Source: Gallionellaceae bacterium (GTDB lineage Bacteria; Pseudomonadota; Gammaproteobacteria; Burkholderiales; Thiobacillaceae). From it: DNA of 64,000 nt. Both the position numbers and the translations under genes were made by a program. Within the stretch, counting starts at the first letter, position 1; each line of letters starts with the position of its first letter. The notes beneath the pieces are model-generated. The model had not been told where the DNA came from, made no database searches, and saw only the letters and a program-made list of their open reading frames with translations. The DNA is taken from positions 1-64,000 of the forward strand of contig JAQTLN010000010.1 of assembly GCA_028714875.1 (NCBI GenBank), written 5' to 3'. Below are positions 19,975 through 60,679 of this stretch, one piece after another.

Positions 19975-21354
19975 ATGGATCAATCCGCGCGTTACGCCGA
20001 CCTCAGCCTGAAAGAAGAAGACCTGATCAAGGGCGACAAGCACATCCTCGTCGCCTATCACATGCAGCCCGCCACCGGTTATGGCTACCTGGAAGTCGCG
20101 GCGCACATCGCCGCCGAGTCCTCCACCGGCACCAACGTGGAAGTCTCCACCACCGACGACTTCACCAAGGGTGTCGACGCGCTGGTGTACTTCATCGACG
20201 AAGCCAAGGGTGTGATGAAGGTTGCCTACCCGAATGACCTGTTCGACCGCAACATCACCGACGGTCGCGCCATGCTGGTGTCGTTCCTGACCCTGGCCAT
20301 CGGCAACAACCAAGGTATGGGCGACGTGAAGCATCTGCAAATGCAGGATTTCTATGTTCCCTGGTCCATGCTGCGCCAGTTCGACGGCCCCTCCAAAGAC
20401 ATCACCGACCTGTGGGACATCCTCGGTCGCCCCCGCGTCAACGGCGGCTACATTGCCGGCACCATCATCAAGCCGAAGCTGGGCCTGCGTCCCGAGCCGT
20501 TCGCGGCCGCCGCTTACCAGTTCTGGCTGGGTGGCGACTTCATCAAGAACGACGAACCCCAGGGCAACCAGGTGTTCTGCCCGGCCAAGAAGGTTTACCC
20601 GCTGGTGTATGACTCGATGAAGCGCGCCATGGACGAGACCGGCCAGGCCAAGATCTTCTCCGCCAACATCACCGCTGACGACCATTACGAAATGCTCGCT
20701 CGCGCCGATTTCATCCTGGAAGCGTTCGGCCCGGACGCCAACAAGGTGGCCTTCCTGGTCGACGGCTACGTCGGCGGCCCCGGCATGATTACCACCGCCC
20801 GTCGTCAGTACCCCAACCAGTACCTGCACTATCACCGCGCCGGTCACGGCGCCGTGACCTCCCCCTCCGCCGTGCGTGGCTACACCGCCTTCGTGCTGTC
20901 CAAGATGTCCCGTCTGCAAGGTGCTTCCGGCATCCACGTCGGCACCATGGGCTTCGGCAAGATGGAAGGCGGCCGCGATGACCGCAACATCGCCTACATG
21001 ATCGAGCGCGATTCCGCCGACGGCCCGTACTACCACCAGGAATGGCACGGCATGAAGCCCACCACCCCGATCATCTCCGGTGGCATGAACGCGCTGCGTC
21101 TGCCCGGCTTCTTCGAGAACCTCGGTCACGGCAACGTGATCAACACTTCCGGTGGCGGCTCCTACGGCCACATCGACAGCCCCGCCGCCGGCGCGATCTC
21201 CCTGCGTCAGTCCTACGAGTGCTGGAAGGCCGGCGCCGACCCGATCGAATTCGCGAAAGAGCACAAAGAGTTTGCTCGCGCCTTCGAGTCCTTCCCGGGT
21301 GATGCCGACAAGCTGTTCCCCGGCTGGCGTGAAAAGCTGGGCGTGCACAAGTAA
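19975..21354 (+). CDS. cbbM: Form II ribulose-1,5-bisphosphate carboxylase/oxygenase
   Basis: CbbM fixes CO2 onto RuBP in the Calvin cycle and favours high CO2, low O2. The 459-residue protein keeps every active-site element with Rhodospirillum numbering: Lys166 in IIKPKLG, the carbamylated Lys191 in [14 protein letters not shown], and loop-6 Lys329 in [11 protein letters not shown]. The start follows AAAGGAG. A strong terminator sits 32 bases after the stop, so the downstream cbbQ and cbbO probably receive only part of the transcripts. Confidence 0.98.
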
Positions 21355-21414: not shown

Positions 21415-21464
21415 TCCGGGATGGATTTCCCCTTGAGCGACAGGGGGAAGAAATGGAGCACGCA

Positions 21465-22271
21465 ATGAGCACCGACAAAGAGCAATACAAGGTTCACCAG
21501 CAACCCTACTACCAGGCCCAGGGCAAGGAAGTGACGCTGTACGAGGCGGCTTACCGCAACCGCCTGCCGGTCATGGTGAAAGGCCCCACCGGATGCGGCA
21601 AATCCCGCTTCATCGAATACATGGCCTGGAAACTGGACAAGCCGCTGATCACCGTGGCCTGCAACGAAGACATGACCGCCAGCGATCTGGTCGGCCGCTA
21701 CCTGCTGGAAGCCAACGGCACCCGCTGGCTGGACGGCCCGCTCACCACCGCCGCCCGTATCGGCGCCATCTGCTACCTGGATGAAATCGTCGAGGCACGC
21801 CAGGACACCACCGTGGTGATCCACCCGCTCACCGACCACCGCCGCACCCTGCCACTCGACAAGAAGGGCGAGCTGATCCACGCGCACCCCGACTTCCAGT
21901 TGGTGATTTCCTACAACCCCGGCTACCAGTCGTTGATGAAGGATCTGAAGCAGTCCACCAAACAGCGCTTCACCGCCTTCGATTTCGACTACCCGGACAC
22001 CGCGCTGGAAACCACCATCCTGGCCAAGGAAACCGGGCTCGACGAAGCCACTTCGGCCAAGTTGGTGAAGATCGCGCATACCGCCCGCAACCTGAAAGGC
22101 CACGGCCTCGATGAAGGCATCTCTACCCGCCTGCTCGTTTACGCCGCCACCCTGATCAAGGATGGCGTGGACCCGCTGGACGCCTGCCGCATGGCGCTGG
22201 TGCGCCCCATCACCGACGACGCCGACATCCGCGAAACCCTGGACCACGCCATCGACGCGACGTTTGCGTGA
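21465..22271 (+). CDS. cbbQ: RuBisCO activase ATPase CbbQ (form II operon)
   Basis: CbbQ is a MoxR-type AAA+ ATPase that, with CbbO, removes inhibitory sugar phosphates from RuBisCO. The protein has Walker A GPTGCGKS at 40-47 and Walker [11 protein letters not shown], plus the C-terminal CbbQ domain ([12 protein letters not shown]). I start at 21465: with this start the P-loop has the same residue number as in the second CbbQ. An in-frame ATG at 21453 would add four residues. It lies between the cbbM terminator and a long family A repeat that precedes cbbO. Confidence 0.95.
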
Positions 22272-22279
22272 TGCGTTTC

Positions 22280-22398
22280 TCCCTCCCCCTCCGGGGGAGG
22301 GCCGGGGAGAGGGAAATACGCCGGCACATCCAACGCCGGTTGATTGAGCAACCGCCGCTCCCTCTCCCCCGGCCCCTCTCCCGGAGGGGGAGGGGAGG
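22280..22398. repeat. Palindromic repeat family A, copy 2, between cbbQ and cbbO
   Basis: Two facing units: CCCTCCCCCTCCGGGGGAGGG plus a G-rich tail (22280-22312, sequence shown only in part: CCCTCCGGGGGAGGG), about 40 bases of spacer, then the inverted unit up to 22398. It fills the space before cbbO, whose start is 10 bases beyond. Confidence 0.85.
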
Positions 22399-22407
22399 GA
22401 AAAGACC

Positions 22408-24789
22408 ATGACCGAAACTGAATACCAGCACCCCCTGATGAAGGCCTATTGGGCCCAACTCGACACCGGCTTCGAGCCGATCGCGGATGTGTTCGAGGAT
22501 GTCATGGCGGAAGCCCTGGCCATCCTCAGTCGTGAGGGAATCGACGCCTATCTGGAAGCCGCCCGTGTCATCGGCAAGCTGGGGCGCGGCGTCCAGCCCA
22601 TGCTGGCGTTCATGGAGGAATGGCCGACCAGCGCCAAGACCATCGGCGAGAGCGGCTTGCCCGCGATCATGGCCATGATCCAGCGGATGCAAAAGTCGCC
22701 CAACGGCAAAGCCATCACCCCCTTCCTGGAAACGCTGGCGCCGGTGGCGCGCAAGTTGCGCTCTCAGGAGCGGATGGGGCGTTACCTGGATATCGTCCTG
22801 GATTTCATGGAGCGCACCACCGGTTCCATCCACGGCCACCACACCACCTTTCCCAGCCCCGGCCTGCCCGATTTCTTCGCCCAGGCGCCGTTTCTTCTCG
22901 GCCAGCTCACCCTGGCCGGCATGAAGAACTGGGTGGAGTACGGCATCCGCAACTACCGCGGCCACCCGGAACGGCAGAAGGATTACTTCAGTCTGCAATC
23001 CGCCGACAGCCGCGCCGTGCTGCAACGCGAGCGTCACGGCACCCTGTTCATGGACGTGGAGCGCAAGCTCGACCTTTACCTGCACGGCCTATGGCGGGAA
23101 TCGGAACAACTGGTGCCCTACTCCACCGCTTTCGACGAAATGCGCCGCCCGGTGCCGTATTACGACAAGCTGGGCATGCGGATTCCCGATGTGTATGACG
23201 ACGTTATTCTCCCTCTCCCCCTGGGAGAGGGCCGGGGTGAGGGAGCGGCGCTCGATCTGGCGTTATCGGTTGATTCGACGTTGCTCCCTCACCCCCGGCC
23301 CCTCCCCCAGGGGGGGAGGGGAGAAATCCGTATCACCGGCATCGACCGTTACCGCGTCACCCTCGCCCACATGGTCGGCCACCGTCGCTGGACCGAAGCT
23401 CAGATCGCCGACAACTGGAGTCCGTTTCAGCGCATGGCGGTGGAGTTCTTCGAGGACTGCCGCGTCGAAACGTTGCTCTGCCGTGAATACCCCGGCCTCA
23501 AGCGCATCTTCCTGGCCCTGCATCCGAAGCCGGTCGAAGACGCCTGCGATCCGGAGACCACTTCCTGCCTGCGCCACCGCATGGCCATGCTGTCGCGCGC
23601 CCTGCTCGACCCGGATCACGGTTACGGTGATGCCGATCTGCTCGACTATGTGCGGCGCTTCCATGACCTGATGGCTACAGGGATAGCCAGCACCAAGGAA
23701 ATCGCGGTCCTGGCGCTGAGCTACGTCGCCAAAACCCGCCGCCAGAGCGACCAGCTGGCCCGCGTCCACTTCGCCGACACCGTGGTCGACTACCGCGATG
23801 ACAACCGCCAGATGTGGAAATTCATCGAGGATAGCGACGACGAAGAGATGTTCGAGAAGGAGAAGAAACGCACGCCAAGCGAAGAACTCAAGGGCCTGCC
23901 GCCGCGCCATTACCCGGAATGGGATTACCACAGTCAGACCTACCGCCCGGACTGGGTCAGCGTCTATGAGGCCCTGCATCCGAAAGGCAACCCCGCCGAC
24001 ATCGACAAGCTGCTGTTGAAGCACGGCGCCCTGGCCAAACGCCTGAAACGCATCCTCGATTTGCTCAAGCCGCAGGACAAGGTGCGCATCCGTTACCAGG
24101 AAGAGGGCAGCGAACTCGACCTCGACGTCGCCCTGCGCTCCCTGATCGACTTCAAGGGCGGAGCCACCCCCGACCCGCGCATCAACATGAGCCACCGCAC
24201 CAACGGCCGCGACATCTCGGTGATGTTGCTGCTCGACCTGTCGGAATCGCTCAACGAGAAAGCCACCGGCGGCGACCAGACCATCCTCGAACTCAGCCAG
24301 GAAGCCGTCTCGCTGTTGGCCTGGGCGGTCGAACAACTGGGCGACCCCTTCGCCATCGCCGGCTTCCATTCCAATACCCGTCATGACGTGCGTTACCTGC
24401 ATATCAAAGGCTACAGCGAACGCTGGGGCGACGACGCCAAGGCCCGCCTGGCGGCCATGGAAGCGAATTATTCAACCCGCATGGGCGCGGCCATGCGCCA
24501 CGCCGCTCACTACCTGGAAGCGCGCCCGGCCGACAAGAAACTCATGCTCATCCTCACCGATGGTCAGCCCTCGGACATCGACACCAACGATGAACAGTTG
24601 CTGATCGAAGACGCCCGCCAAGCCGTGAAGGAACTCGACCGTAAAGGCATCTTCACCTACTGCATCAGCCTCGACCCGAAGGCCGATGAATACGTCAGCG
24701 GCATCTTCGGCCGGCAGTACACGGTGATCGACAACATCCAGCGACTGCCGGAAAAATTGCCGGAATTGTTCCTGGCTCTGACCAAGTAG
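22408..24789 (+). CDS. cbbO: RuBisCO activase adaptor CbbO (form II operon), with repeat-coded insertion
   Basis: CbbO is the adaptor that links the CbbQ hexamer to RuBisCO. The 793-residue protein has a C-terminal von Willebrand A domain with the MIDAS motif DLSES (about 610) and T/D residues downstream (TDGQPSD). The N-terminal part is helical and CbbO-specific. Residues about 267-305 (LPLGEGRGEG to LPQGGRGE) are encoded by a family A palindromic repeat, in frame, between PDVYDD and GIDRYRVTLAH. The second cbbO carries a similar insertion at the same place. Confidence 0.95.
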   Translation: MTETEYQHPLMKAYWAQLDTGFEPIADVFEDVMAEALAILSREGIDAYLEAARVIGKLGRGVQPMLAFMEEWPTSAKTIGESGLPAIMAMIQRMQKSPNGKAITPFLETLAPVARKLRSQERMGRYLDIVLDFMERTTGSIHGHHTTFPSPGLPDFFAQAPFLLGQLTLAGMKNWVEYGIRNYRGHPERQKDYFSLQSADSRAVLQRERHGTLFMDVERKLDLYLHGLWRESEQLVPYSTAFDEMRRPVPYYDKLGMRIPDVYDDVILPLPLGEGRGEGAALDLALSVDSTLLPHPRPLPQGGRGEIRITGIDRYRVTLAHMVGHRRWTEAQIADNWSPFQRMAVEFFEDCRVETLLCREYPGLKRIFLALHPKPVEDACDPETTSCLRHRMAMLSRALLDPDHGYGDADLLDYVRRFHDLMATGIASTKEIAVLALSYVAKTRRQSDQLARVHFADTVVDYRDDNRQMWKFIEDSDDEEMFEKEKKRTPSEELKGLPPRHYPEWDYHSQTYRPDWVSVYEALHPKGNPADIDKLLLKHGALAKRLKRILDLLKPQDKVRIRYQEEGSELDLDVALRSLIDFKGGATPDPRINMSHRTNGRDISVMLLLDLSESLNEKATGGDQTILELSQEAVSLLAWAVEQLGDPFAIAGFHSNTRHDVRYLHIKGYSERWGDDAKARLAAMEANYSTRMGAAMRHAAHYLEARPADKKLMLILTDGQPSDIDTNDEQLLIEDARQAVKELDRKGIFTYCISLDPKADEYVSGIFGRQYTVIDNIQRLPEKLPELFLALTK
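23209..23322. repeat. Palindromic repeat family A, copy 3, inside cbbO of the form II operon
   Basis: CCCTCTCCCCCTGGGAGAGG-type hairpin, a spacer of about 45 bases, then the inverted unit. The length keeps the cbbO frame open through about 38 codons. Confidence 0.85.
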
Positions 24790-24821
24790 GGGCGGGGTGC
24801 CGTAACCCGACATGGCGGATA

Positions 24822-24893
24822 TGTAGCGCCGGCGTCTCGCCGGCTTCGTAAATCTGATCAGACCCACGAAGCCGGCGAGACGCCGGCGCTACA
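24822..24893. repeat. Palindromic repeat family C, copy 3
   Basis: GTAGCGCCGGCGTCTCGCCGGC-type arms (core GCCGGCGTCTCGCCGGC) face each other across a spacer with TGATCAGA. It separates the ends of convergent cbbO and cbbR and may serve both as terminator. Confidence 0.85.
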
Positions 24894-24911
24894 ACTACGG
24901 CGCGGCGCCCC

Positions 24912-25859
24912 TTACTTTCCACACCCCTCCCCACAACACGCCGCGCCACCGCCTGGCGAGCAGGCCGTCTCGCTGCTCTGGGTGAGGAGGAAGTCGAGGA
25001 AGGCGCGCGCCACCACGGAGATCTGCCGCCCGGCCGGGTAAGCCGCGTACCAGTGGCGCTGGATGGGGAAAGCTTCCGCGTCGAGCACCGCGAACTGGCC
25101 GGGCTGGTGCAGGGTGAGGGCATGGCAGGAGAGCGCGGAGATGCCCAGGCCGGCGAGGATGGCCTGCTTGATGGCTTCGTTGCTGCCCAGTTCCAGCCGC
25201 GGGCGAATTTCCAGCCCCTGTTCCCGAAACAGCCGTTCGATCGCCTTGCGCGTGCCGGAGCCGGCCTCGCGCATGACCCAGGGTTCCTGTGCCAGTCGCG
25301 CCAGTGGGATGTGCTTTTCCTTCGCCAGCGGGTGGCCGGGGGCGGCGAGGACGACGATGGGGTTATCCATGATCGGCGTGGCGACGACTTCGATTTCATC
25401 GGGCGGCTGCCCCAGCAGATAGAGGTCGTCCAGATTGTCGGCCATGCTGGCCAGCACCTGTTCCTTGTTGGTGACGCGCAGGCTGACGTCGATGCCGGGG
25501 TGCAGCTTGGCGAATTCGCCCAGCAGGCGCGGCGCGAAGTAGGAAGCGGTGGTGATCGCCATCAACTTCAACTTGCCCTTCTCCAGGCCGCGCCGCTGCG
25601 CCACCGACATGGTGTAGCGGTCGAGGATGGCGAAGATTTCCCGCGTGGCCTGGGCCAGTTCGCGGCCGTCCTCGGTCAGCAGTACCTTCTTCCCCACTTG
25701 CTCCACCAGCGGTGAGCCGACGATATCCGTGAGTTTTTTCATCTGCATGGAGACGGTCGGCTGGGTCAGATAAAGCTCTTCCGAGGCGCGGGTGAAGCTG
25801 CTCAGGCGGGCGATGGACTCGAAGATTTCCAACTGGCGGAAGGTGGTGTGGTGGCGCAT
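24912..25859 (-). CDS. cbbR: LysR-family regulator CbbR of the form I RuBisCO operon
   Basis: A second CbbR of 315 residues, divergent from cbbL. The helix-turn-helix (FRQLEIFESIARLSSFTRA, then LTQPTVSMQMKKL) is typical. Compared with the first CbbR it has a C-terminal extension of about 18 residues with four cysteines (ETACSPGGGAACCGEGCGK). Whether the tail binds metal, senses redox state or is merely drift is open. It presumably activates cbbLSQO through the palindrome at 25955-25972. Confidence 0.92.
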   Translation of the reverse strand: MRHHTTFRQLEIFESIARLSSFTRASEELYLTQPTVSMQMKKLTDIVGSPLVEQVGKKVLLTEDGRELAQATREIFAILDRYTMSVAQRRGLEKGKLKLMAITTASYFAPRLLGEFAKLHPGIDVSLRVTNKEQVLASMADNLDDLYLLGQPPDEIEVVATPIMDNPIVVLAAPGHPLAKEKHIPLARLAQEPWVMREAGSGTRKAIERLFREQGLEIRPRLELGSNEAIKQAILAGLGISALSCHALTLHQPGQFAVLDAEAFPIQRHWYAAYPAGRQISVVARAFLDFLLTQSSETACSPGGGAACCGEGCGK

Positions 25860-25874
25860 GGGCGGAAGAACTCC

Positions 25875-25947
25875 GTAAGTTGGGCAAAGCGTAGCGTGCC
25901 CAACAAGCAGCGGTGATGTTGGGCACGCTACGCTTTGCCCAACTTAC
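25875..25947. repeat. 31-bp perfect inverted repeat between cbbR and cbbL (family E)
   Basis: Arms 25875-25905 and 25917-25947 are exact complements across an 11-base loop; the core reads TGGGCAAAGCGTAGCGTGCC. This type of element recurs in many proteobacterial genomes. It lies close to the cbbR start and may insulate it from the cbbL promoter. Confidence 0.85.
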
Positions 25948-25954
25948 GTCATTA

Positions 25955-25972
25955 GATAGATAAAAATCTATC
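25955..25972. promoter_or_regulatory. Candidate CbbR operator upstream of cbbL
   Basis: GATAGAT-AAAA-ATCTATC is a perfect palindrome with a four-base centre, about 120 bases before cbbL. It has the same architecture as the palindrome before cbbM but a different half-site, which suggests that the two CbbR proteins recognise different sequences. Confidence 0.6.
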
Positions 25973-26091
25973 GTTTCAATAGAAAAACGTGACTGTTATT
26001 TATGTTTGTAGGCCTTCAAGATGCGCCCACTTCGAATCGGAACACAACAACCGTTTCGTTGGACCGACCAACATCCCGCAAGGAGCGATAC

Positions 26092-27513
26092 ATGGCTGTG
26101 AAGACCTACAACGCTGGTGTGAAGGAATACCGCCAGACCTACTGGACCCCCGAGTACACCCCCCAGGACACCGACATTCTGGCCTGCTTCAAGGTCACCC
26201 CGCAGCCTGGCGTTCCCCGCGAGGAAGTCGCCGCCGCCGTGGCCGCCGAGTCGTCCACCGGCACCTGGACCACCGTCTGGACCGACCTGCTGACCGACCT
26301 GGATTACTACAAGGGCCGCGCCTATCGCATCGAAGACGTGCCCGGCGACGACACCTGCTTCTACGCCTTCGTGGCCTACCCGATCGACCTGTTCGAGGAA
26401 GGCTCCATGGTCAACGTGCTGACCTCGTTGGTCGGCAACGTGTTCGGCTTCAAGGCCCTGCGCGCCCTGCGTCTGGAAGATGTGCGTTTCCCCATCGCCT
26501 ACGTAAAAACCTGTGGCGGCCCGCCCCTGGGCATCCAGGTCGAGCGCGACATCATGAACAAGTACGGCCGTCCTTTGCTGGGCTGCACCATCAAGCCGAA
26601 GCTGGGTCTGTCCGCCAAGAACTACGGCCGCGCCGTTTACGAGTGCCTGCGCGGCGGCCTGGACTTCACCAAGGACGACGAGAACGTCAACAGCCAGCCC
26701 TTCATGCGTTGGAAGCAGCGTTTCGACTTCGTCCAGGAAGCCACCGAGAAAGCCGAGCGTGAAACCGGCGAGCGCAAGGGCCACTACCTGAACGTGACCG
26801 CGCCGACCCCGGAAGAGATGTACAAGCGCGCCGAATACGCCAAGGAAATCGGCGCCCCCATCATCATGCATGACTTCCTGACCGGCGGCCTGACGGCCAA
26901 TACCGGCCTGGCCAACTGGTGTCGCGATAACGGCATGCTGCTGCACATCCACCGCGCCATGCACGCCGTGCTCGACCGCAACCCGCATCACGGCATCCAC
27001 TTCCGGGTGCTGACCAAGGTGCTGCGCCTGTCCGGTGGTGACCACCTGCACTCCGGCACCGTCGTCGGCAAGCTGGAAGGCGACCGCGAAGCGACCCTGG
27101 GCTGGATCGACATCATGCGTGACGAGTTCATCAAGGAAGACCGTTCACGCGGCATCATGTTCGACCAGGACTTCGGTTCCATGCCCGGCGTCATGCCGGT
27201 CGCTTCCGGCGGCATCCACGTCTGGCACATGCCCGCCCTGGTGACCATCTTCGGTGACGACTCTGTGCTGCAATTCGGTGGCGGTACGTTGGGCCACCCC
27301 TGGGGCAACGCGGCCGGCGCCGCCGCTAACCGCGTCGCGCTGGAAGCCTGCGTGGAAGCGCGCAACCGCGGTGTCGCCATCGAGAAGGAAGGCAAGACCA
27401 TCCTGACCGACGCGGCCAAGAACTCGCCCGAACTGAAGATCGCCATGGAAACCTGGAAAGAGATCAAGTTCGAGTTCGACACCGTGGACAAGCTGGACGT
27501 CGCCCACAAGTGA
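26092..27513 (+). CDS. cbbL: Form I RuBisCO large subunit
   Basis: From the ATG at 26092 (after AAGGAG) the product has 473 residues. Active-site lysines are present: Lys168 in CTIKPKLG, carbamylated Lys194 in [13 protein letters not shown] and loop-6 Lys327 in [11 protein letters not shown]. The sequence is of the IA type. The genes that follow are cbbS, cbbQ and cbbO and not carboxysome shell genes, so this is the cytoplasmic IAq kind. A longer frame from 26002 would run through the promoter region and is rejected. A family A repeat separates it from cbbS. Confidence 0.98.
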
Positions 27514-27523
27514 TCAAGCTTTT

Positions 27524-27624
27524 CTCCCTCTCCCCCTGGGAGAGGGGCCGGGGTGAGGGAACAGCGTCGGCTTGACCGACCCGAGATCCCTCTCCCCCGG
27601 CCCCTCCCCAGAGGGGGGAGGGGA
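27524..27624. repeat. Palindromic repeat family A, copy 4, between cbbL and cbbS
   Basis: CCCTCTCCCCCTGGGAGAGG-type unit and its inverted partner around a spacer of about 30 bases. It may stabilise the cbbL message 3' end or uncouple cbbS translation. Confidence 0.85.
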
Positions 27625-27651
27625 GTCAACCCAAATTAAAGGAAATGAAAA

Positions 27652-28008
27652 ATGTCTGACGTGATGGATTACAACTCCCGCCTCTCCGACCCCGCCAGCC
27701 GCAAGTTCGAGACCTTCTCCTACCTGCCCGCGATGGATGCGGCCAACATCAAGAAGCAGGTCGAGTATCTGGTGAAGAAAGGCTGGAACCCGGCGATCGA
27801 GCATATCGAGCCCGAGTACCTGATGGACTCCTACTGGTACATGTGGAAGCTGCCGATGTTCGGCGAGACCGATGTCGATGCCGTGCTGGCCGAAGCCGAA
27901 GCCTGCCACAAGGCCAACCCGAACAACCATGTGCGTCTGATCGGCTACGACAACTTCAAGCAGTCGCAAGGCGCCGCCATGGTCATCTTCCGCGGCAAGA
28001 CCGTCTGA
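27652..28008 (+). CDS. cbbS: Form I RuBisCO small subunit
   Basis: The 118-residue small subunit shows the family landmarks: [31 protein letters not shown], and [14 protein letters not shown]. It caps the L8 core to give L8S8. The gene follows cbbL after 138 bases that contain a repeat, more than the usual spacing for these two genes. Ribosome site AAAGGAAATG lies just before the ATG. Confidence 0.98.
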
Positions 28009-28014
28009 TTGGCC

Positions 28015-28131
28015 CCCCTCCCCCCTCGGGGGAGGGGCTGGGGGAGAGGGGGCAACGGTTACTTCGTGGACGCCGTATCGGCTAGCCACCGCCGTTCCCT
28101 CTCCCCGGCCCTCCCCCGGCGGGGGAGGGAG
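28015..28131. repeat. Palindromic repeat family A, copy 5, between cbbS and cbbQ
   Basis: CTCCCCCCTCGGGGGAGGGG-type unit, spacer, then inverted unit, ending 17 bases before cbbQ. Confidence 0.85.
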
Positions 28132-28148
28132 CAACCCAGGAGCCCGCT

Positions 28149-28952
28149 ATGAGCAACATCGTTGATCAATATCGCATCACCCAGGAACCCTATTACCGCA
28201 GCGTCGCCGACGAAGTGGAGTTGTACGAAGCCGCCTACTCCGTGCGCATGCCGATGATGCTCAAAGGGCCGACCGGCTGCGGCAAGACCCGTTTCGTCGA
28301 ATACATGGCCTGGAAATTGAGCAAGCCGCTGATCACCGTGGCCTGTAACGAAGACATGACCGCCTCCGACCTGGTCGGCCGCTTCCTGCTCTCCGCCCAG
28401 GGCACCGAATGGCAGGATGGCCCGCTGGCCATCGGCGCCCGCCACGGCGCCATCGTCTACCTCGACGAAGTGGTCGAGGCGCGCCAGGACACCACCGTGG
28501 TGATCCACCCACTGACCGACAACCGCCGTGTATTGCCCCTGGAAAAGAAGGGCGAACTGGTCAACGCCCACCCCGATTTCCAGATTGTGATTTCCTACAA
28601 CCCCGGCTATCAGTCGCTGATGAAGGATCTGAAGCAGTCCACCAAACAGCGTTTCGGCGGCCTCGACTTCACCTATCCCGAGCACGACATCGAGACCGAG
28701 ATCGTGGCGCATGAATCCGGTGTCGCCGCCGACATCGCCGGCAAACTGGTGTCGATCGCCGAACGCTCGCGCAACCTCAAGGGCCACGGCCTCGACGAAG
28801 GCCTCTCCACCCGCATGCTGATCTACGCCGGCAGCCTGATCGCCAAGGGCGTGAAACCGGAGGCCGCCTGTCGTGTCGCCCTGGTGCGCCCGATCACCGA
28901 CGATCCGGACATGCGTGATGCGCTGGATGCGGCGGTGACCACGTTCTTCTGA
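28149..28952 (+). CDS. cbbQ: RuBisCO activase ATPase CbbQ (form I operon)
   Basis: This 267-residue AAA+ ATPase is a close paralogue of the first CbbQ. Walker A GPTGCGKT is at 40-47 and Walker B is [10 protein letters not shown]. The sensor region [16 protein letters not shown]-like (here [16 protein letters not shown]) and the CbbQ C-terminal domain are present. Together with the downstream CbbO it should act on the CbbLS enzyme. That each QO pair prefers its own RuBisCO is known for related systems and inferred here. Confidence 0.96.
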
Positions 28953-29025
28953 AAGCGGAATCCGGGCCATCGTTCCCGGATTCCGCCAGCGGCTGCATCC
29001 GGGCTACATGAAAAGGACTTGAACC

Positions 29026-31497
29026 ATGTCGATCAATCTCGCTGACTACGCCGAACTCCTGGAAGACCTGTCGCCGCACAGCCAGGCGGCATTGCAGGCC
29101 AACTGGCACGAGGCGACCAAGGTGTTCTCGCCGCGTGGCCTGGACAATTACCTGAAGGGCGCCTCCGCGATTCGCGGCCTGGGCAAGGGTGACTCGCTGG
29201 TCGAGGCCTGGATCGTGGAAACGCCGCAAGTGGCCAAGGAGGTCGGCGAGGATGTGGTCGGCGATCTCGCCGCCGCTTCGCTGTCGCTGGCCTCGCGGAC
29301 TTCCGGCGCGGTGATCGAACTGCTGCTGAACACCGCGCCCACCGCCGCCAACCGGCTCGGCGACGCGCATCTGTTCCAGAACTATCTCCAGTTCATCAAC
29401 ACCCTGATCGCTCAGGCGCCGCGCGGCGTGCGGCCGATGCTGAACAAGCTGGAAGTCCTGTTCCAGCAACTCACCCTCGGCGGCCTGCGCCGCTGGGCGC
29501 TGTGGGGCGCCCACGCCCACCGCACCAACTACGAAGAGCAGATCAAATACTTCAGCCTCGAATCGAAAGAGTCGCTGGCGATGCTGCAGAAAGAGCGCAA
29601 GGGCACGTTGCTGGTCGACGTGCAGCGGCGCATCAACATGTATCTGCGCGCGTTGTGGGCGCGCGACTTCTTCATGCGCCCGACGGCGGGCGACTTCGAG
29701 ACCCGTGAAGGCTACCGCCCCTACATCGAGGACTACCTGCTGCATCTGCCGGACGCCTTCGACGATTTCGTGCTCCCCTCCCCCCCCGGGGGAGGGGCCG
29801 GGGGAGAGGGAACGACCTCCGCCAAATCGACCGGCGCTCCCTCACACCTAACCCCTCTGATGAAGCCCCTACCCTCCGGTATCCCGGGGGGAGAGGGGGA
29901 CCGGGTTTCCGGCCTGGAGCTCTACCGCGCCACCGCCGCCCATTGCGCCGCCCATGTGGTCGAGACCCGAGTGCCCATTTCCGCCGAGGCGCTCAACCCG
30001 ATGCAGATGGCGGTGATCAGTGTGATCGAGGATGCGCGGGTGGAAACGCTTTCCATCCGCCGCTTTCCCGGCCTGAAACAGCTCTGGAGCAAGTTGCACA
30101 CGGCCACGCCCGAGCTGACCAAGAGCATGGGCGACTACCTCAACCGCCTGGCGCGCGCCCTGCTCGACGACAGTTATCAGGACAACGACCCGTGGATCAT
30201 TGAAGCCCGCGCGCTGTTCGCGCTGGCGCGGGACAAGCTGGACGACAACCACACCTCCTGGGAGATCGGCGTCACCCTCGCGCACAGCTTTAGCCAGAAG
30301 CGGATTCCGTTCAATCCGCGCACCGACCTGCTCACCGCGCCCTACCGCGACGACAACCGCTATTTCTGGGAATTCGAGGAATTCGACTTCAACAAGGCGG
30401 CCAGCGCCGGCTACGACTCCATCAAGCAGGTACGCAAGTACGTCAGCGTGATGGAGATGGCCAACGAGATCGACGTCGAGACCGCCGGCGACGACGCCGA
30501 GGAAATCTGGGTGCTGGGCACTGAATTGTTCCCCTACGAGAACATCGGCGACGAGAGCAACGGCAAGTCCTACAACGAGCTGGAAGGCAAGGAGCCGCTG
30601 TCCGACCCATTCCACTATTCCGAGTGGGATTATCAGATCCAGCTGGAGCGCCCGGCCTGGGCCACGGTGCAGGAAAAGCGCGCCAAGATGGGCGACCTGC
30701 AAATCATCGAAGGCATCACCGCCCAGTACAAGCGTGAAATCCATCGCATGAAATTCCTGCTCGACGCCATGCAGCCGCAGGGCGTGCAGCGCATCCGCAG
30801 GCTGGAGGATGGCGACGAGATCGACATCAACGCCGCCATCGCCAGCTTCACCGACATTCGTCTGGGCAACCAGCCGGACCCGCGCATCATGATGCGTTCG
30901 GTCAGGAAGACCCGCGACTTCTCGATCCTGGTGCTGCTCGACCTGTCGGAATCGACCAACGAGAAAGTGCAGGATCAAGAGTACTCGGTGCGCGAACTCA
31001 CCCAGCAGGCCTGTGTGCTGCTGGCCGACGCCATCAACAAGGTGGGCGATCCGTTCGCCATCCACGGCTTCTGCTCCGACGGCCGCCACGACGTCGAGTA
31101 CTACCGCTTCAAGGACTTCGACCAGCATTGGGACGAGACGCCCAAGGCCAAGCTCGCCGGTATGACCGGCCAGCTTTCCACCCGCATGGGCGCGGCCATC
31201 CGCCACGCCGGCCACCACCTGCAACTGCAACGCTCGGCCAAGAAACTGCTCATCGTCATCACCGACGGCGAGCCGGCCGACGTCGACGTGCGTGATCCGC
31301 AATACCTGCGCTACGACACCAAGAAGGCGGTGGAGGAAGTGGCCAAGCTGGGTGTCACGACTTATTGCATGAGCTTGGACCCGCGCGCGGATAATTACGT
31401 CTCGCGCATCTTCGGCCAGAAGAACTACATGGTCGTCGACCATGTCCAGCGGCTACCGGAGAAGCTCCCGCTTCTCTATGCCGGCTTAACCAGATAG
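29026..31497 (+). CDS. cbbO: RuBisCO activase adaptor CbbO (form I operon), with repeat-coded insertion
   Basis: The 823-residue adaptor has the VWA domain with MIDAS DLSES (about 640) and TDGEPAD. The CbbO N-terminal helical region is complete. Residues about 249-292 (LPSPPGGGAGGEG to IPGGEGD) are coded by a family A repeat between PDAFDDFV and GLELYRATAAH. The sister gene is interrupted at the same point by a repeat of different sequence. The stop is 8 bases before a 98-residue gene. Confidence 0.95.
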   Translation: MSINLADYAELLEDLSPHSQAALQANWHEATKVFSPRGLDNYLKGASAIRGLGKGDSLVEAWIVETPQVAKEVGEDVVGDLAAASLSLASRTSGAVIELLLNTAPTAANRLGDAHLFQNYLQFINTLIAQAPRGVRPMLNKLEVLFQQLTLGGLRRWALWGAHAHRTNYEEQIKYFSLESKESLAMLQKERKGTLLVDVQRRINMYLRALWARDFFMRPTAGDFETREGYRPYIEDYLLHLPDAFDDFVLPSPPGGGAGGEGTTSAKSTGAPSHLTPLMKPLPSGIPGGEGDRVSGLELYRATAAHCAAHVVETRVPISAEALNPMQMAVISVIEDARVETLSIRRFPGLKQLWSKLHTATPELTKSMGDYLNRLARALLDDSYQDNDPWIIEARALFALARDKLDDNHTSWEIGVTLAHSFSQKRIPFNPRTDLLTAPYRDDNRYFWEFEEFDFNKAASAGYDSIKQVRKYVSVMEMANEIDVETAGDDAEEIWVLGTELFPYENIGDESNGKSYNELEGKEPLSDPFHYSEWDYQIQLERPAWATVQEKRAKMGDLQIIEGITAQYKREIHRMKFLLDAMQPQGVQRIRRLEDGDEIDINAAIASFTDIRLGNQPDPRIMMRSVRKTRDFSILVLLDLSESTNEKVQDQEYSVRELTQQACVLLADAINKVGDPFAIHGFCSDGRHDVEYYRFKDFDQHWDETPKAKLAGMTGQLSTRMGAAIRHAGHHLQLQRSAKKLLIVITDGEPADVDVRDPQYLRYDTKKAVEEVAKLGVTTYCMSLDPRADNYVSRIFGQKNYMVVDHVQRLPEKLPLLYAGLTR
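29774..29902. repeat. Palindromic repeat family A, copy 6, inside cbbO of the form I operon
   Basis: CTCCCCCCCCGGGGGAGGGG-type hairpin, spacer, and a degenerate inverted unit (GTATCCCGGGGGGAGAG). The frame stays open through about 43 codons. Confidence 0.8.
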
Positions 31498-31802: not shown

Positions 31803-31941
31803 GCGGAGGCGAGGCGCGGTTCTTCACCGCGCCGCACCCTGAATGAACGCCCTTTTCGCGTGGGCTCGCGACGCGAACCGAGGTTTCCCCCTTTTCAAGG
31901 CTGTTCTCGCGTTAACTTGTGATGCGGTTGGCAGCAGCGGT

Positions 31942-32037
31942 TCCCCCCTTTATCAAAGGGGGGGCTAGGGGGGATTTCTGAGGCGGCTACCCAGGCAAAC
32001 GTCGCTAAATCCCCCTCAACCCCCCTTTGATAAAGGG
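31942..32037. repeat. Palindromic repeat family B, copy 1
   Basis: CCCCCCTTTATCAAAGGGGG and the inverted partner CCCCCCTTTGATAAAGGG flank a spacer reading GGCGGCTACCCAGGCAAACG. The spacer also occurs, inverted, in copy 2. The stretch 31803-32138 holds this repeat and a GC hairpin at 31814-31834, and no gene. Confidence 0.85.
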
Positions 32038-32138
32038 AAAAGTTACATACCACCGGCTTTTGCGCTTATCTCCAGTTGACGCGCAAAACGTCCGAAAGGA
32101 AGGATGGTGGATGACGCATTTCGCGGACTTGTCCCAGG

Positions 32139-41314: not shown

Positions 41315-41388
41315 TCTGCCTCCCCCTTTCCCAAAGGCTCTGTATGCGTTTGTTGTTGAAAGCACATGGAGCGCTGACTGGGGCGACT

Positions 41389-41486
41389 TCCCCCTTTTCC
41401 AAAGGGGGATTGAGGGGGATTTAGCGACGTTTGCCTGGGCAGCCGCCTCAAAAATCCCCCCTGGCCCCCCTTTGAAAAGGGGGGGA
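41389..41486. repeat. Palindromic repeat family B, copy 2
   Basis: CCCCCTTTTCCAAAGGGGG and CCCCCCTTTGAAAAGGGG flank a spacer (TAGCGACGTTTGCCTGGGCA) that is copy 1's spacer inverted. The space 41315-41609 contains only this element. Confidence 0.85.
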
Positions 41487-41609
41487 ACCTCCCATGTCAG
41501 CGCCATTCTCCAACGCGGACCGGGCGGCGTCGTTGCCGTCACATTTCCTTCATCATTTCGTCACCTTGCGTGGCTACACTGCCGGCTTCATCGTGGTCCC
41601 GCCTGAGCC

Positions 41610-52692: not shown

Positions 52693-52706
52693 GGGGTTGC
52701 TGACTC

Positions 52707-52808
52707 CCCCCCCTTTTTCAAAGGGGGGCTGGGGGGGATTTCTCCAGGGGTTGTGCGCGTGCGAGCGTCGCTAAATCCCCCCTAACCCCCCTTTGGGAAA
52801 GGGGGGAC
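52707..52808. repeat. Palindromic repeat family B, copy 3 (tandem with copy 4)
   Basis: CCCCCTTTTTCAAAGGGGGG, spacer with TTGTGCGCGTGCGAGCGTCG, then the inverted unit CCCCCCTTTGGGAAAGGGGG. About 35 bases follow that also flank copy 4. Confidence 0.85.
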
Positions 52809-52848
52809 TCGTGCCGCTCAAGTCGGCGCAAGGTTGCACTAGCCGGCT

Positions 52849-52949
52849 CCCCCCTTTTTCAAAGGGGGGCTGGGGGGGATTTCTCCAGGGGTTGTGCGGG
52901 TGCGAGCGTCGCTAAACCCCCCCTAACCCCCCTTTGGGAAAGGGGGGGC
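52849..52949. repeat. Palindromic repeat family B, copy 4
   Basis: Nearly identical to copy 3, including the spacer. Both copies are followed by CTCGTGCCGCTCAAGTCGGC, which in copy 4 is the end of the GGDEF-EAL gene, so the pair arose by tandem duplication of about 142 bases. Confidence 0.85.
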
Positions 52950-52958
52950 TCGTGCCGC

Positions 52959-55826
52959 TCAAGTCGGCGCGATGCGCGCGCGCAGGAAGTTTTCGAATTC
53001 CGTCGCTGGTAGCGGCCGGCTGTAGAAATAGCCTTGCGCCTGATCGCAGCCTTCGTGTTTCAGGAATTCACGCTGGGCATCGCTTTCCACACCCTCGGCG
53101 ATGACGCTGAAACCGAGGTTGTGGCCCAGGGAGATGACCGCGCGCGTGATGGCGGCATCGTCGTGGTCGCCTGGCAGGTCGCGCACGAAGCTTTGGTCGA
53201 TCTTGAGTTTGTTCACGCGCAGGTACTTCAGGTAGGAGAGCGAGGAATAGCCGGTACCGAAGTCGTCGATGGCGACCTTCACGCCCAGTTCCGACAGCTT
53301 TTCCACCACGGTCATGGCCTGTTCCGCGTTGCGCAACAAGAAGCTTTCGGTGATTTCCAACTCCAGACGTTCGGCCGGCCAGCCGGTTTCTTCCAGCACG
53401 GTTCGCACGATGGTGAAGAAGTCGCCGCGCTCGATCTGCGGGCCGGCCACGTTGACGGAAACGGAACCCGCGCCCAGGCCGCGTGCCTCCCATTCGACCG
53501 CATGGCGGCAGGACTGGCGCAGCACCCATTCGCCCAGCGGCAGAATCAGTCCGGTCTCCTCGGCGATGGGGATGAAGTCGTTGGGCGGTACCAGCCCCCG
53601 TTCCGGAGAGCGCCAGCGCACCAGGGCCTCGGCCCCGAACAGCGCGCCCGTGGCGAGATCGAATTGCGGCTGGAACCAGACTTCCAGTTCTTCGTTATCC
53701 AAGGCGCGGCGCAGGCCCTGTTCGATGACCAGGCGTTGCTGCGCGGCGCGCGTCATGTCGGCATGGTGGAAACGGCTGGTGTTGCGGCCGGCCTGCTTGC
53801 TGGCGTACATCGCCATGTCGGCCGCTTGCAGCAGGCTGGTGGTATCGCCGCCATCGTCGGGGAAGAGGGCGATGCCGACACTGGCGGTGACCAGCGCGCT
53901 ATGGCCATCGAGATCGACTGGCTCGGACACCGCCTGAATGATTTTTTCCGCGATCAGGCTGGGGTTGCCGACTGCCTCGACGATCACCGCGAACTCATCG
54001 CCACCCATGCGCGCCACCGTGTCCTCGCGCCGCAGCAGACGACGCAGACGCTCGGCGATGATCTGCAACAAAAGGTCGCCGGCGGGATGGCCGAGGCTGT
54101 CGTTGACGGTCTTGAATCCATCCAGATCGAGCACCATGACCGCAAGCCTTTCCTTGTGCCGCTCGGCGTGGTCGAGGGCATGGTTGAGTTGGGCATGCAG
54201 AAGGATGCGATTGGGCAGGTCGGTGAGTGGGTCGTAATGCGCCAAGCGCTCCAGTTCCGCCTCGGAACGCTTGATGTGGCTGATGTCGGAAAACACGCCG
54301 ACATAGCTTTGCACCGCGCCATTCGTATCGCGCACCGCGCTGATGGTGAGCCATTCGGGATACACCTCGCCGTTCTTGCGCCGGTCCCAGAGTTCACCCT
54401 GCCAGTGGCCGGTGGCGAGTAGCTCCGCCCACATCGCCTGATAGAACTCGTCGGGGTGGCGGCCGGACTTGAGGAAGCTGGGATTACGGCCAAGCGCTTC
54501 GGCTTCCGAATAGCCCGTCACTGACGTGAAGGCCGGGTTCACCGAAAGAATATTGCCGCCGAGGTCGGTCAGCATGACGCCCTCGGCGGTGCTCTCGAAC
54601 ATGGCCACCACCTGGCGCACATAAGCCTCGTGGGCGCGACGGCTGGAAAGATCGCTGACCAGGGCGAAGGCGCCGGCCTGCGCCCCGGTTTCGTCGGAAA
54701 TCGGCGAGGCGCTGAACTGGCAGGGCGCCAAGCCGCCATCCAGCCGGGTCAGATCGACTTCGTAGACGGATTGTTCGCCGCGCTCTCGCATCACCCCTTG
54801 ATCCAACAGGATTGCGCGGTTGGCGGCATCGACGAAGTCATAGATGGAACGGCCGACAAAGTCCTCCGGCCGGCCCCCCAACAGCTTCGCGAAGGCGGGG
54901 TTGACCTGTGCCACCACATCGTCGAGGTCGGTCATCAGAAAGCCCTCCTGGGTGGTGTCCAGGATGCGCCGGATGCGCTGCTCGCTGATGCGCAGGCGGC
55001 TGGCCAGATCGCGCTGCCGCCAGGCCATGGTCGCGACCAGCACCAGACCGATCAGCAGCGCGGTGAGGATGCCGATCCAGATCGCCAGGAACCCCGCGGA
55101 AAGCCCGGAATCGGCGATGTCCGGACGGCCGTCGCTGATGAAATAGGCGGCCGCCATCGCCGTGTAATGCATGCCGGAAACGGCGCCGCCCATCACCAGG
55201 GCGCTCAACAGGGCCAGCCAGCGCGGTGGTACATGGCCATACAGGCCGAAGCGGATCCACAGCGCCAGAAAGGCCAGCAACACGGCTACCACCAGGGAGA
55301 AGGCGAACAGCGCCGGGTCGTAGCGCACCAGGCCATCCAGGCGATAGGCCGCCATGCCGGTGTAATGCATGGTGCCGATGCCCATCCCCAACAGCACACT
55401 GCCGACCAGCAGGGCGCGCCGGGACAGGCTGCGGCGGCTGATCACGCGCAGCGCCACCGCGCTGGCGAGGATGCCGGGCAAAATGGAAATCAGGGTGATG
55501 TCGGGGTCGTAGCTGACGCGGCAGGGCAGATGGAAGGCGAGCATGCCGATGAAGTGCATGGCCCAGGTGCCGCCGCCCATCGCCATGGCGCCGATGCCGG
55601 TCCACCATGCCGCTTGCGCGCGCGAGGGACTGGAGGCGATGCGTGTGGCGACATCGAGCGCGGCATAGGCGGCAAACGACGCGATCAGGATCGATAGCAG
55701 CACCAACCACGGATCGTAGATGCCGGCGTAAAGCAGGCTGGTATCCGGCGGGCTGCTGACGAATTGCAGATAGGGCGTGAGTTGCGCGGACAAGGATGCG
55801 CCTGCGGCGGCGGGTGGGGCCGCCAT
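52959..55826 (-). CDS. MHYT-PAS-PAS-GGDEF-EAL cyclic-di-GMP enzyme
   Basis: A 955-residue membrane signalling protein. The N-terminal MHYT sensor (about 30-270) shows three repeats (WAMHFIGMLAF, GTMHYTGMAAY, SGMHYTAMAAA), thought to bind copper and sense O2, CO or NO. Two PAS domains follow (about 285-395 and 405-520). GGDEF is intact (RMGGDEFAV), and EAL is intact (FGAEALVRW, ELEITES, AIDDFGTGYSS, KIDQSF, IAEGVES). It could therefore both make and degrade c-di-GMP. The 3' end is part of the duplicated repeat unit. Confidence 0.92.
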   Translation of the reverse strand: MAAPPAAAGASLSAQLTPYLQFVSSPPDTSLLYAGIYDPWLVLLSILIASFAAYAALDVATRIASSPSRAQAAWWTGIGAMAMGGGTWAMHFIGMLAFHLPCRVSYDPDITLISILPGILASAVALRVISRRSLSRRALLVGSVLLGMGIGTMHYTGMAAYRLDGLVRYDPALFAFSLVVAVLLAFLALWIRFGLYGHVPPRWLALLSALVMGGAVSGMHYTAMAAAYFISDGRPDIADSGLSAGFLAIWIGILTALLIGLVLVATMAWRQRDLASRLRISEQRIRRILDTTQEGFLMTDLDDVVAQVNPAFAKLLGGRPEDFVGRSIYDFVDAANRAILLDQGVMRERGEQSVYEVDLTRLDGGLAPCQFSASPISDETGAQAGAFALVSDLSSRRAHEAYVRQVVAMFESTAEGVMLTDLGGNILSVNPAFTSVTGYSEAEALGRNPSFLKSGRHPDEFYQAMWAELLATGHWQGELWDRRKNGEVYPEWLTISAVRDTNGAVQSYVGVFSDISHIKRSEAELERLAHYDPLTDLPNRILLHAQLNHALDHAERHKERLAVMVLDLDGFKTVNDSLGHPAGDLLLQIIAERLRRLLRREDTVARMGGDEFAVIVEAVGNPSLIAEKIIQAVSEPVDLDGHSALVTASVGIALFPDDGGDTTSLLQAADMAMYASKQAGRNTSRFHHADMTRAAQQRLVIEQGLRRALDNEELEVWFQPQFDLATGALFGAEALVRWRSPERGLVPPNDFIPIAEETGLILPLGEWVLRQSCRHAVEWEARGLGAGSVSVNVAGPQIERGDFFTIVRTVLEETGWPAERLELEITESFLLRNAEQAMTVVEKLSELGVKVAIDDFGTGYSSLSYLKYLRVNKLKIDQSFVRDLPGDHDDAAITRAVISLGHNLGFSVIAEGVESDAQREFLKHEGCDQAQGYFYSRPLPATEFENFLRARIAPT

Positions 55827-59066: not shown

Positions 59067-60443
59067 ATGGAAGAGGACGACATTCCCTCGCTACGTCACC
59101 GTCTGGTGAACTGGCTGTTTACACCGCTGTACCTGTGGTTGCTGTTTTCCACGGTCACCGGCTATCTGGCGGCGGTGAACCTGGCCAACCGGCCTTACGA
59201 CCTGGTCTTGCAGGAACGCGCCAAGCTGCTCGCCAGCCGCTACAACCATGTGCAGGGCACCACGGAATTCGAACTGGCCCAGCTGTTTCCCGAAGCGGAG
59301 GGCGAATTCCTGTTCGCGCTCTATGACAGCCAGGGGCATCGCCTGGCCAGCAACGGCCACCTGCCGGTGCCGCACCCCGCCGATTTCCGCATCACGACGG
59401 CGGCGCTACGCAATGCCCAGATCGCGGATCGCAAGCTGCGTCTGCTTACCATGCGCACGCCCGGTCCCGATGGCGATCTCATGCTGGTGCAGGCGGCCGA
59501 GCCGGTGCAAGCGCGTCTGGCGCTGGGGCGCAGCATCCTGGGCAACATCGTGATCCCCCAGTTCATCTTCATCCTGATCGCCGGTGTGGCGGTCTGGATC
59601 GGCCTTAAGAAAGGCCTCAAGCCGCTGGAGCGCCTGCGCCGGCAAGTGGCCAACCGCCCGCGCGACGACCTTCGCCCGCTCGACGAAACCCTGGCGCCCA
59701 ACGAAGTGCGTCCGCTGATCCGCGAAGTGAACGCATTGATCGAACGCCTGAAATTCCTCATGGAAGGGCAGCGCCGCTTCGTCGCCGACGCCGCGCACCA
59801 ACTGCGCACCCCGTTCGCCGGCCTGCGCGCGCAGGCGGAACTGGCGCGCCGCGAAGAGGCTTCGGCGCCGGTGAAAGAGGCCCTGGAACGCATTTGCGTC
59901 GGCGCGCAGCGCTGTAGCCGTCTGGTCACGCAACTGCTGACTCTGGCGCGCAACGAGCCGGAAGCACGCCTGCAAGCCCCCATGCTGCTGCTCGATCTCG
60001 CCCGCGTCGCCCAGGAAGCCGCCAGCCATTGGGCGCCGGAGGCCCTGAGCCGCGACATCGACCTCGGCTTCGAGGCGGAAGGCCGGCAACTACCGCTGAA
60101 AGGTGACGAGGCCGGCTTGCGCGACCTGATCGACAATCTGATCGACAACGCCATCCACTACACCCCGGCCGGCGGCCATGTCACCGTGCGCGTGGGTTAT
60201 GACCAGGGTGCCTGGCTCAAGGTGGAAGACGATGGTTCGGGCATTCCGCCGGAACAACGCAGCCAGGTGTTCGAGCGTTTCCACCGCATCCCCGGTAGCG
60301 GCCAACCCGGCAGCGGCCTCGGGCTGGCCATCGTGCGTGAAGTGGTGGCGCGGCACGGCGCCGATCTGGAACTGAGCGACGCCAGCGGCGGCAACGGCGC
60401 CCTGTTCACGGTGCGCTTCCCGCATCACGGCAGCGGGCGGTAG
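59067..60443 (+). CDS. Sensor histidine kinase (second system, TctE/QseC-like)
   Basis: A 458-residue kinase. Membrane segments are at about 15-37 and 165-185, and between them is a periplasmic domain of TctE/2CSK-N type with FELAQLFPEAEGEFLFALYD (position about 65-85). The H-box is DAAHQLRTPFAGLRAQ (His about 247), the N-box LIDNLIDNAIHYTPAGG, and the G-boxes DDGSGIPPEQRS and GSGLGLAIV. The TctE-type sensor often detects organic acids, which would fit the acetate genes nearby; that is inference. Confidence 0.88.
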   Translation: MEEDDIPSLRHRLVNWLFTPLYLWLLFSTVTGYLAAVNLANRPYDLVLQERAKLLASRYNHVQGTTEFELAQLFPEAEGEFLFALYDSQGHRLASNGHLPVPHPADFRITTAALRNAQIADRKLRLLTMRTPGPDGDLMLVQAAEPVQARLALGRSILGNIVIPQFIFILIAGVAVWIGLKKGLKPLERLRRQVANRPRDDLRPLDETLAPNEVRPLIREVNALIERLKFLMEGQRRFVADAAHQLRTPFAGLRAQAELARREEASAPVKEALERICVGAQRCSRLVTQLLTLARNEPEARLQAPMLLLDLARVAQEAASHWAPEALSRDIDLGFEAEGRQLPLKGDEAGLRDLIDNLIDNAIHYTPAGGHVTVRVGYDQGAWLKVEDDGSGIPPEQRSQVFERFHRIPGSGQPGSGLGLAIVREVVARHGADLELSDASGGNGALFTVRFPHHGSGR

Positions 60444-60448
60444 GAATC

Positions 60449-60551
60449 TCCCCCCCCCTTTCTTAAAGGGGGGCTGGGGGGGATTTCTCCAAGCGTCGCG
60501 CGACCGCGACCGTTGCCAAATCCCCCTCGGTCCCCCTTTGAAAAAGGGGGA
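60449..60551. repeat. Palindromic repeat family B, copy 5
   Basis: CCCCCCTTTCTTAAAGGGGG and CCCCCTTTGAAAAAGGGGG around a spacer. It follows the histidine kinase stop directly. Confidence 0.85.
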
Positions 60552-60572
60552 AGACACCTCCGCGCAACCAGT

Positions 60573-60669
60573 CCCTCCCTTTCCCAAAGGGGGGTTAGGG
60601 GGGGCTTCGTGCATTACGCGAGCCCGGCCGTTGCCAAATCCCCCTTGATCCCCCTTTGAAAAAGAGGGA
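60573..60669. repeat. Palindromic repeat family B, copy 6
   Basis: CCCTTTCCCAAAGGGGGG and CCCCCTTTGAAAAAGAGGG. It lies 21 bases after copy 5, and both spacers contain GGCCGTTGCCAAATCCCC or a close variant, so they are related copies. Confidence 0.85.
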
Positions 60670-60679
60670 AGACGCCCCG

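Follow-up and report, generated by a model that had tools for sequence, protein, structure and literature searches.

The cbb locus and its palindromic repeats

The window, by which we mean the whole stretch of 64,000 nucleotides that was analysed, carries two rubisco operons on the forward strand. The first large-subunit gene (cbbM, 19975..21354, RuBisCO_large match), which we take to encode a form II rubisco, is followed by the cbbQ gene for the AAA+ partner (21453..22271, CbbQ_C and AAA_5 matches) and by a cbbO gene (22408..24789) that encodes a protein of 793 residues with a VWA domain at its C-terminus. The second large-subunit gene (cbbL, 26092..27513), presumably of form I, precedes a second cbbQ (28149..28952), both assigned by the family scan, and a second cbbO (29026..31497, 823 residues).

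Each of the two cbbO genes contains a palindromic repeat of the family that we call family A. In the form II operon this is a doublet of two units facing each other ('A> 42-nt spacer <A', 23209..23322, forward strand), which lies in frame and encodes LPLPLGEGRGEG...PHPRPLPQGGRGE. The cbbO of the form I operon carries an in-frame family A element at the homologous position (29774..29902, forward strand), consisting of a first unit, 28 nt (counted by eye) and then a decayed, interrupted second unit. Both reading frames run uninterrupted across the repeat, in agreement with the preliminary description, which had also placed the two repeats at the same codon position. The alignment bears this out: both inserts directly follow DD or DDF and precede [ST]G[IL]xxYR. 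The gain of about 40 residues per insert that had been estimated was measured as net +40 residues in the form II protein (loop of 62 instead of 22) and net +38 in the form I protein (65 instead of 27). A third CbbO of the source genome (L038) is without a repeat.

The inserts belong to a family with further copies in the window. Family A doublets, to which no strand was assigned, are located in the cbbQ/cbbO gap of the form II operon (22276..22397), in the cbbL/cbbS gap (27522..27625) and in the cbbS/cbbQ gap of the form I operon (28013..28134). Two more palindromic repeats were seen in the region of the form I operon, at about 25875-25948 (lysR/cbbL gap) and at 28954-29010 (cbbQ/cbbO gap), the latter resembling by eye the DSAALHPGY-coding insert in PolA of genome G011.

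Recurrence of inserts at the CbbO site

For form II CbbO we aligned the window protein with the best 80 of 210 related stretches from named genomes, many of them titled Thiobacillus or Hydrogenophilales and 76 of the 80 being MAGs. Among these 81 proteins we looked for a comparable Gly/Pro loop that is not repeat-coded as the common state and did not see it: the loop has 22 residues in 49 of them (e.g. PDVYDDAGEISGLDRYRATLAH), is longer by four or five residues in three, and by 10 to 54 residues in 29. The genes are uninterrupted through the site in all 81 cases. Reading the DNA by eye, we assigned 23 fillings to family A, some of them decayed (L103, L104 and L116), five to family B and one to family C; examples are L048 for A, L054 and L095 for B and L049 for C, with an A-like left end in L095 and L049. 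The family B insert encodes GTAGGGTGCGCC... and the family C insert GCGGGCTTGCCCGC... at this site. The filled genes vary from doublets through single units to decayed copies, and between species the inserts differ in sequence, length, family and orientation. Other internal inserts of at least 10 residues are found in the form II alignment at residue 401 (three rows, family B) and residue 80 (one row) and nowhere else. The loop at about residue 401 is thus a second one with family B-coded inserts, in three distant species (L055, L095 and L111, the last of these being partial).

It is conceivable that the hairpin works at the RNA level, by slowing translation or by processing of the cbbQO message, and that its coding is incidental. 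The predicted RNA hairpins are very stable (-97.0 kcal/mol over 114 nt for the form II insert and -70.7 kcal/mol over 129 nt for the form I insert), and the extra doublets between genes in both operons would suit such a role. However, a strong hairpin is not maintained, single units and decayed copies being found among the filled CbbO, and 52 of the 81 form II CbbO do without the repeat. We therefore consider an RNA-level role to be improbable.

In a quick tree of the form II proteins, from which the loop columns were excluded, the filled and empty states require at least 20 changes, 10 of which are forced by well-supported branches. Shuffled labels gave a mean of about 24 changes, and 17 and 26 of 500 shuffles were equally low. 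Filled genes thus cluster slightly on the tree, and part of the inserts is therefore shared by descent. The sister pair L050 (filled) and L056 (empty), with about 93-94% DNA identity, differs by net +39 nt at the loop, whose four codons are replaced at the junction rather than merely interrupted. All filled form II loci come from MAGs; L067, L079, L089 and L108, the four records without MAG in their titles, are all empty. An assembly artefact would be a hard explanation for one in-frame insert at one site in many separate assemblies, seen so far in MAGs. In the single MAG CAMDHJ the form II cbbO is present twice, as a copy filled with family B (L054) and as an empty one (L086).

The form I alignment has 55 rows, in which L034 and L191 represent one gene, so that 54 distinct genes are covered. 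Ten of the 54 are filled at the homologous place with family A-like sequence, decayed in one of them (L199), a proportion that is no rate because 5 of the 20 fetched regions were chosen for a suspected insert. The unfilled loops have 22-28 residues in 42 genes (mostly 27), and two loops of 32 residues are without repeat sequence.

The preliminary description had offered two options for the origin of the two inserts, an ancient shared insertion or independent hits at one permissive loop. One insertion that predates the split between form I and form II, retained in some lineages and lost in most, would account for the position and outline that both paralogues share, and parsimony change counts by themselves do not distinguish gain from loss. 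However, the short loop is found in most sampled members of both subfamilies and in the third paralogue, three palindrome families occupy the site, the form II tree holds at least those 20 changes of state, and the form II insert has a 42-nt spacer like other doublets in its genome. Because most sampled CbbO are unfilled, and because of the three families and the changes on the tree, we favour independent hits on one permissive loop for the two inserts of the window; the ancient insertion has become scarcely credible. This recurrent insertion site in CbbO may be new, as no report of it was found in the literature searched, the partial coverage of which makes this weak evidence of novelty; REPs in frame as such are already known.

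Structure and constraint of the loop

In the AlphaFold model of the form II CbbO, a modest model with a mean pLDDT of 68.8 and a pTM of 0.40, the residues of the insert (270-305) have a pLDDT below 50 and lie between two short strands in the N-terminal part of the protein. In the PDB the closest matches extend over the VWA part of NorD, and none of them over the loop-bearing domain. The translated insert is predicted to be a disordered loop, and its position looks permissive, as had been proposed. In comparison with the closest relative (L048), 48 of the 192 changed codons in the flanks are non-synonymous and 144 synonymous, against 7 non-synonymous and 4 synonymous among the 11 in the insert (p = 0.010). 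For this one pair the pattern fits with the insert being tolerated filler.

The preliminary description went further and regarded the REP-like DNA as adopted as protein. An adopted insert would be retained for a selected function of CbbO, such as contact with CbbQ or rubisco or assembly, and the recurrence at one loop in both paralogues could mean benefit instead of tolerance. However, the inserts vary between species in all the respects named above, the repeat is often absent from close relatives, the constraint is weaker in the single pair compared, the insert is predicted to be disordered, and comparable inserts exist in unrelated proteins. The claim of adoption is therefore unsupported, and we regard such a function as unlikely.

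Family A in the source genome

The strict pattern of the family A unit has 82 matches in the 4.08 Mb genome and the reversed pattern 21, which is a weak control as the unit is nearly palindromic. The census covered about 1.5 kb on each side of the strict matches and some further loci, L008 among them, and the clusters were classed by codon usage trained on the genes of the window. Among 77 family A clusters 32 are in frame and open, as is characteristic of protein-coding palindromic elements, i.e. palindromes in frame in unrelated genes. Another 36 lie between stretches on the same strand in another phase, 7 in the same phase with a stop, and 2 between different strands. Outside cbbO there are 30 in-frame clusters, spread over 28 ORFs, and NCBIfam supports 21 of these. 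A single NCBIfam match spans the repeat in nine ORFs (PolA, MutS, FlgJ, ThiO, WaaF, MetG, PseB-like, HemF, AceF). Twelve others have at least two stretches of one family (caprolactamase-like, GlcE, ABC-F, HrpA, DnaX, GcvPA, HsdR, NadC, Mfd, MurU, glycerate kinase, LeuS); for these the best stretch alone was given, and the stretch beyond the repeat was deduced from the stretch count. Seven in-frame ORFs are without NCBIfam support (L040, L135, L144, L152, L177, L178 and the Lpd ORF of L188), and the ORF of L135 joins two different families. The repeat is also in frame in BioA (L046) and in a dehydrogenase (L041), two cases that the strict count does not include.

A search with LeuS gave a single match in the genome with an E value of 1e-20 or better, so that the repeat-bearing LeuS gene presumably serves the cell. 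In relatives the sites in PolA, LeuS, HemF, Mfd and GcvPA are filled in some species (12 gene segments were used as queries against 5 genomes, and 20 regions covering 10 genes were retrieved), and the BioA, MetG and MutS sites are empty in genome G006. CbbO as a unique target was rejected, since family A lies in frame in many other core genes of its own genome and of relatives. In this lineage much of one repeat family, presumably mobile, resides in frame in core enzymes, with the same loops hit repeatedly.

The bare doublet 'A> <A' makes up 26 of 90 family A clusters of the genome. Among the 26 doublet spacers a length of 42 nt is the commonest (12 cases), and four have 28 nt; both lengths are multiples of 14. 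Fifteen spacers of 42 nt have a mean identity of 60%, compared to 30% after shuffling, and the insert in the form II cbbO has a 42-nt spacer as well.

DUF559 nuclease genes between palindromes

An HsdR ORF with a DUF559 domain between family A units led us to analyse the flanks of DUF559 genes in general. Overlapping searches over 1, 41, 117 and 274 genomes yielded 77 loci, which had the best scores among the places listed; 13 of them with short flanks were dropped and 64 used. Repeat units were found by our own patterns within 450 bp of the gene, with the 450 bp at the outer ends of each locus as control. DUF559 genes are associated with these palindromes: both sides carry a unit of the same family (A/A or E/E) in 42 of 64 loci, compared to 1 of 64 distally (p of about 5e-16, which is a guide only as related loci are not independent). 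At least one flank has a unit in 52 of the 64, compared to 8 distally. At random places the both-sided pattern has a frequency of 1.0% in the window and 0.13% in the cbb loci of relatives. Of the flanks, 71% have a unit within 150 bp of the DUF559 gene, a share that falls to 1-8% beyond 300 bp. The both-sided pattern is absent from 22 of the 64 loci, 12 of which have no unit on either side.

The family E palindrome, CCCCCCTTT...AAAGGGGGG, is a second family of the non-GTAG kind. In the window family E copies were seen at 31931-32047, 41377-41492, 52695-52970 and 60440-60676. In a DUF559 tree, built from few columns, nine genes labelled E lie within one well-supported clade of ten, five of these nine labels resting on E on one side or on an excess of E; the tenth member (L271) is flanked by one A and one E side. 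The lineage of the nuclease matches the flanking repeat family in this respect. Of 51 oriented loci, 22 have their nearest units facing inward ('A> DUF559 <A'). This layout is common to the bare doublet, so that short copies and coding element share their termini, as MITEs do with theirs.

The motif D...E[LV]DGGQH, which we take to be typical of Vsr/PD-(D/E)XK-like nucleases, is kept in all 11 nuclease domains checked. Among the CbbO examined none contains DUF559. Genomes whose form II cbbO is filled with family A do not possess DUF559 significantly more often than others (7 of 10 compared to 4 of 12, p = 0.10, one-sided), in a tally made by hand over 22 genomes that left out G056, G060 and genomes with partial form II genes. 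A link between DUF559 and these repeats was not found reported in the literature searched, which was covered in part and gives weak evidence of novelty.

Nuclease domains within conserved proteins

In 13 loci the reading frame continues for long on both sides of DUF559. Ten of these and the HsdR ORF were scanned for families; L264 and L302 were left out. The domain resides in frame, with family A adjoining, in TrpC (L300), RecG (L279), CobT (L263), MmeI (L303), YgiQ (L293, L296, L298), BioF (L332) and HsdR (L259), and in YgiQ it occupies the same position in three genera. Matches to the host family lie on both sides of DUF559 in RecG, MmeI, YgiQ and TrpC, and for CobT, BioF and HsdR the second stretch was deduced from the count. 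We are less sure of a PglX-like protein and an N6/N4 methylase as hosts.

The protein of L300, the only TrpC found in its 92% complete genome, aligns in pieces: TrpC residues 3-151 are followed by an insert of 180 residues with DUF559, then by residues 155-215, by a second insert of 29 residues and by residues 219-264. The second insert (residues 434-462) is family A-coded. As with inteins, a nuclease thus lies in frame in a conserved protein. No self-splicing (Hint) domain is listed in the ten DUF559-bearing ORFs (Pfam with E up to 1e-5, NCBIfam up to 1e-10), and the DUF559 insert seems to stay in the host protein.

A candidate mobile element

Each insert in cbbO is probably a mobile palindromic element of about 110 bp, made of two inverted family A hairpins and a spacer, that entered a tolerant loop independently. 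In our best reading the cbbO inserts would be non-autonomous copies of a nuclease element that sits in frame and does not splice; CbbO would tolerate them without having adopted them. The chances seem evenly balanced that families A and E form an undescribed class of mobile elements, in which a DUF559 gene lies between inward hairpins, in frame and unspliced, and is accompanied by short non-autonomous copies in the same permissive loops, the cbbO inserts included.

From the association and the layout we infer a mechanism in which the DUF559 protein would cut or join at the hairpins of families A and E and mobilise both families, spreading 'A> DUF559 <A' together with short copies. The bare 'A> <A' doublet would be the non-autonomous form, and homing may be one of the steps. 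In-frame insertion might be part of the element's way of life, because the host gene would supply expression of the nuclease. Insertions out of frame or at harmful places would be purged and in-frame copies in tolerant loops would persist, the translated loop being filler that CbbO may tolerate. In-frame inserts of this kind amount to a natural insertion scan of tolerance in CbbO, PolA, LeuS, TrpC and others.

DUF559 might instead be no mobiliser at all, but a passenger between the repeats or a nuclease attracted by them, with family A moving by RAYT or by recombination. Association is no proof of action, Y1_Tnp/RAYT-like genes are present in the genome, and the presence of DUF559 and the filling of cbbO are without a significant link. 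However, none of the genome's five Y1_Tnp loci has a convincing adjoining family A unit, four of them being surrounded by other repeats, the family of the flanking repeats follows the DUF559 clade, and the units point inward on both sides in the 22 oriented loci mentioned above. A passenger role is possible, and we hold it to be somewhat doubtful. RAYT as the mobiliser of family A was rejected on account of the five Y1_Tnp loci, one of which (L128) has one weak family A pattern match about 1.4 kb off. A mobiliser other than DUF559 would be needed for families B and C, whose inserts are found at the cbbO site. Should DUF559 be the mobiliser, a role would be found for a domain that has no function assigned, and non-GTAG REPs would gain their missing enzyme.

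Comparison with known systems

The bare doublets resemble MITEs: they are short, lack a gene, and have the ends and the layout of a coding form. They differ in that their ends are hairpins with inward tags. No target-site duplication was recognised when the junctions of one sister pair and of six genes were compared by eye. The DUF559 loci resemble the RAYT-REP pairs (REPtrons), as a nuclease gene is flanked by palindromes and the nuclease lineage matches the repeat family. However, DUF559 is not a Y1 HUH transposase and carries the D...E[LV]DGGQH motif. Inteins and homing-endonuclease insertions share with the DUF559 inserts the nuclease domain in frame in conserved proteins, recurring at one position as in YgiQ of three genera, whereas the DUF559 inserts are without a listed splicing domain in ten ORFs and seem to be retained.

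Genes for replication, repair and tRNA synthetases can contain GTAG/CGTC REPs (Di Nocera et al. 2013, PMC3733652), and in recB of X. campestris and X. oryzae different REPs are located at about one site (PMC3733652). In the main text of that paper rubisco, cbbO and 'gaggg' have no match. The repeats studied here are likewise found inside genes of these three kinds. However, family A copies read by eye have no GTAG tag, its position being taken by GAGGG, and in the own genome no family A unit convincingly adjoins a RAYT gene. As judged by eye, families B and C, where they fill the cbbO site, resemble GTAG REPs: the tag is seen in family B copies as GTAGGGTGC in L055, L076, L095 and L122 and as GTAGTGCGC in L054, and family C (L049) has CTAC, which is GTAG on the opposite strand.

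Rickettsia palindromic elements (RPEs) are palindromes in frame in many unrelated genes, as described in two papers (PMC3733652, PMC10969869). Family A is like the RPEs in this respect. Family A differs from them in its GC-rich hairpin doublets, its occurrence in Thiobacillus-like bacteria, its longer nuclease-carrying form and the meeting of several families at one loop.
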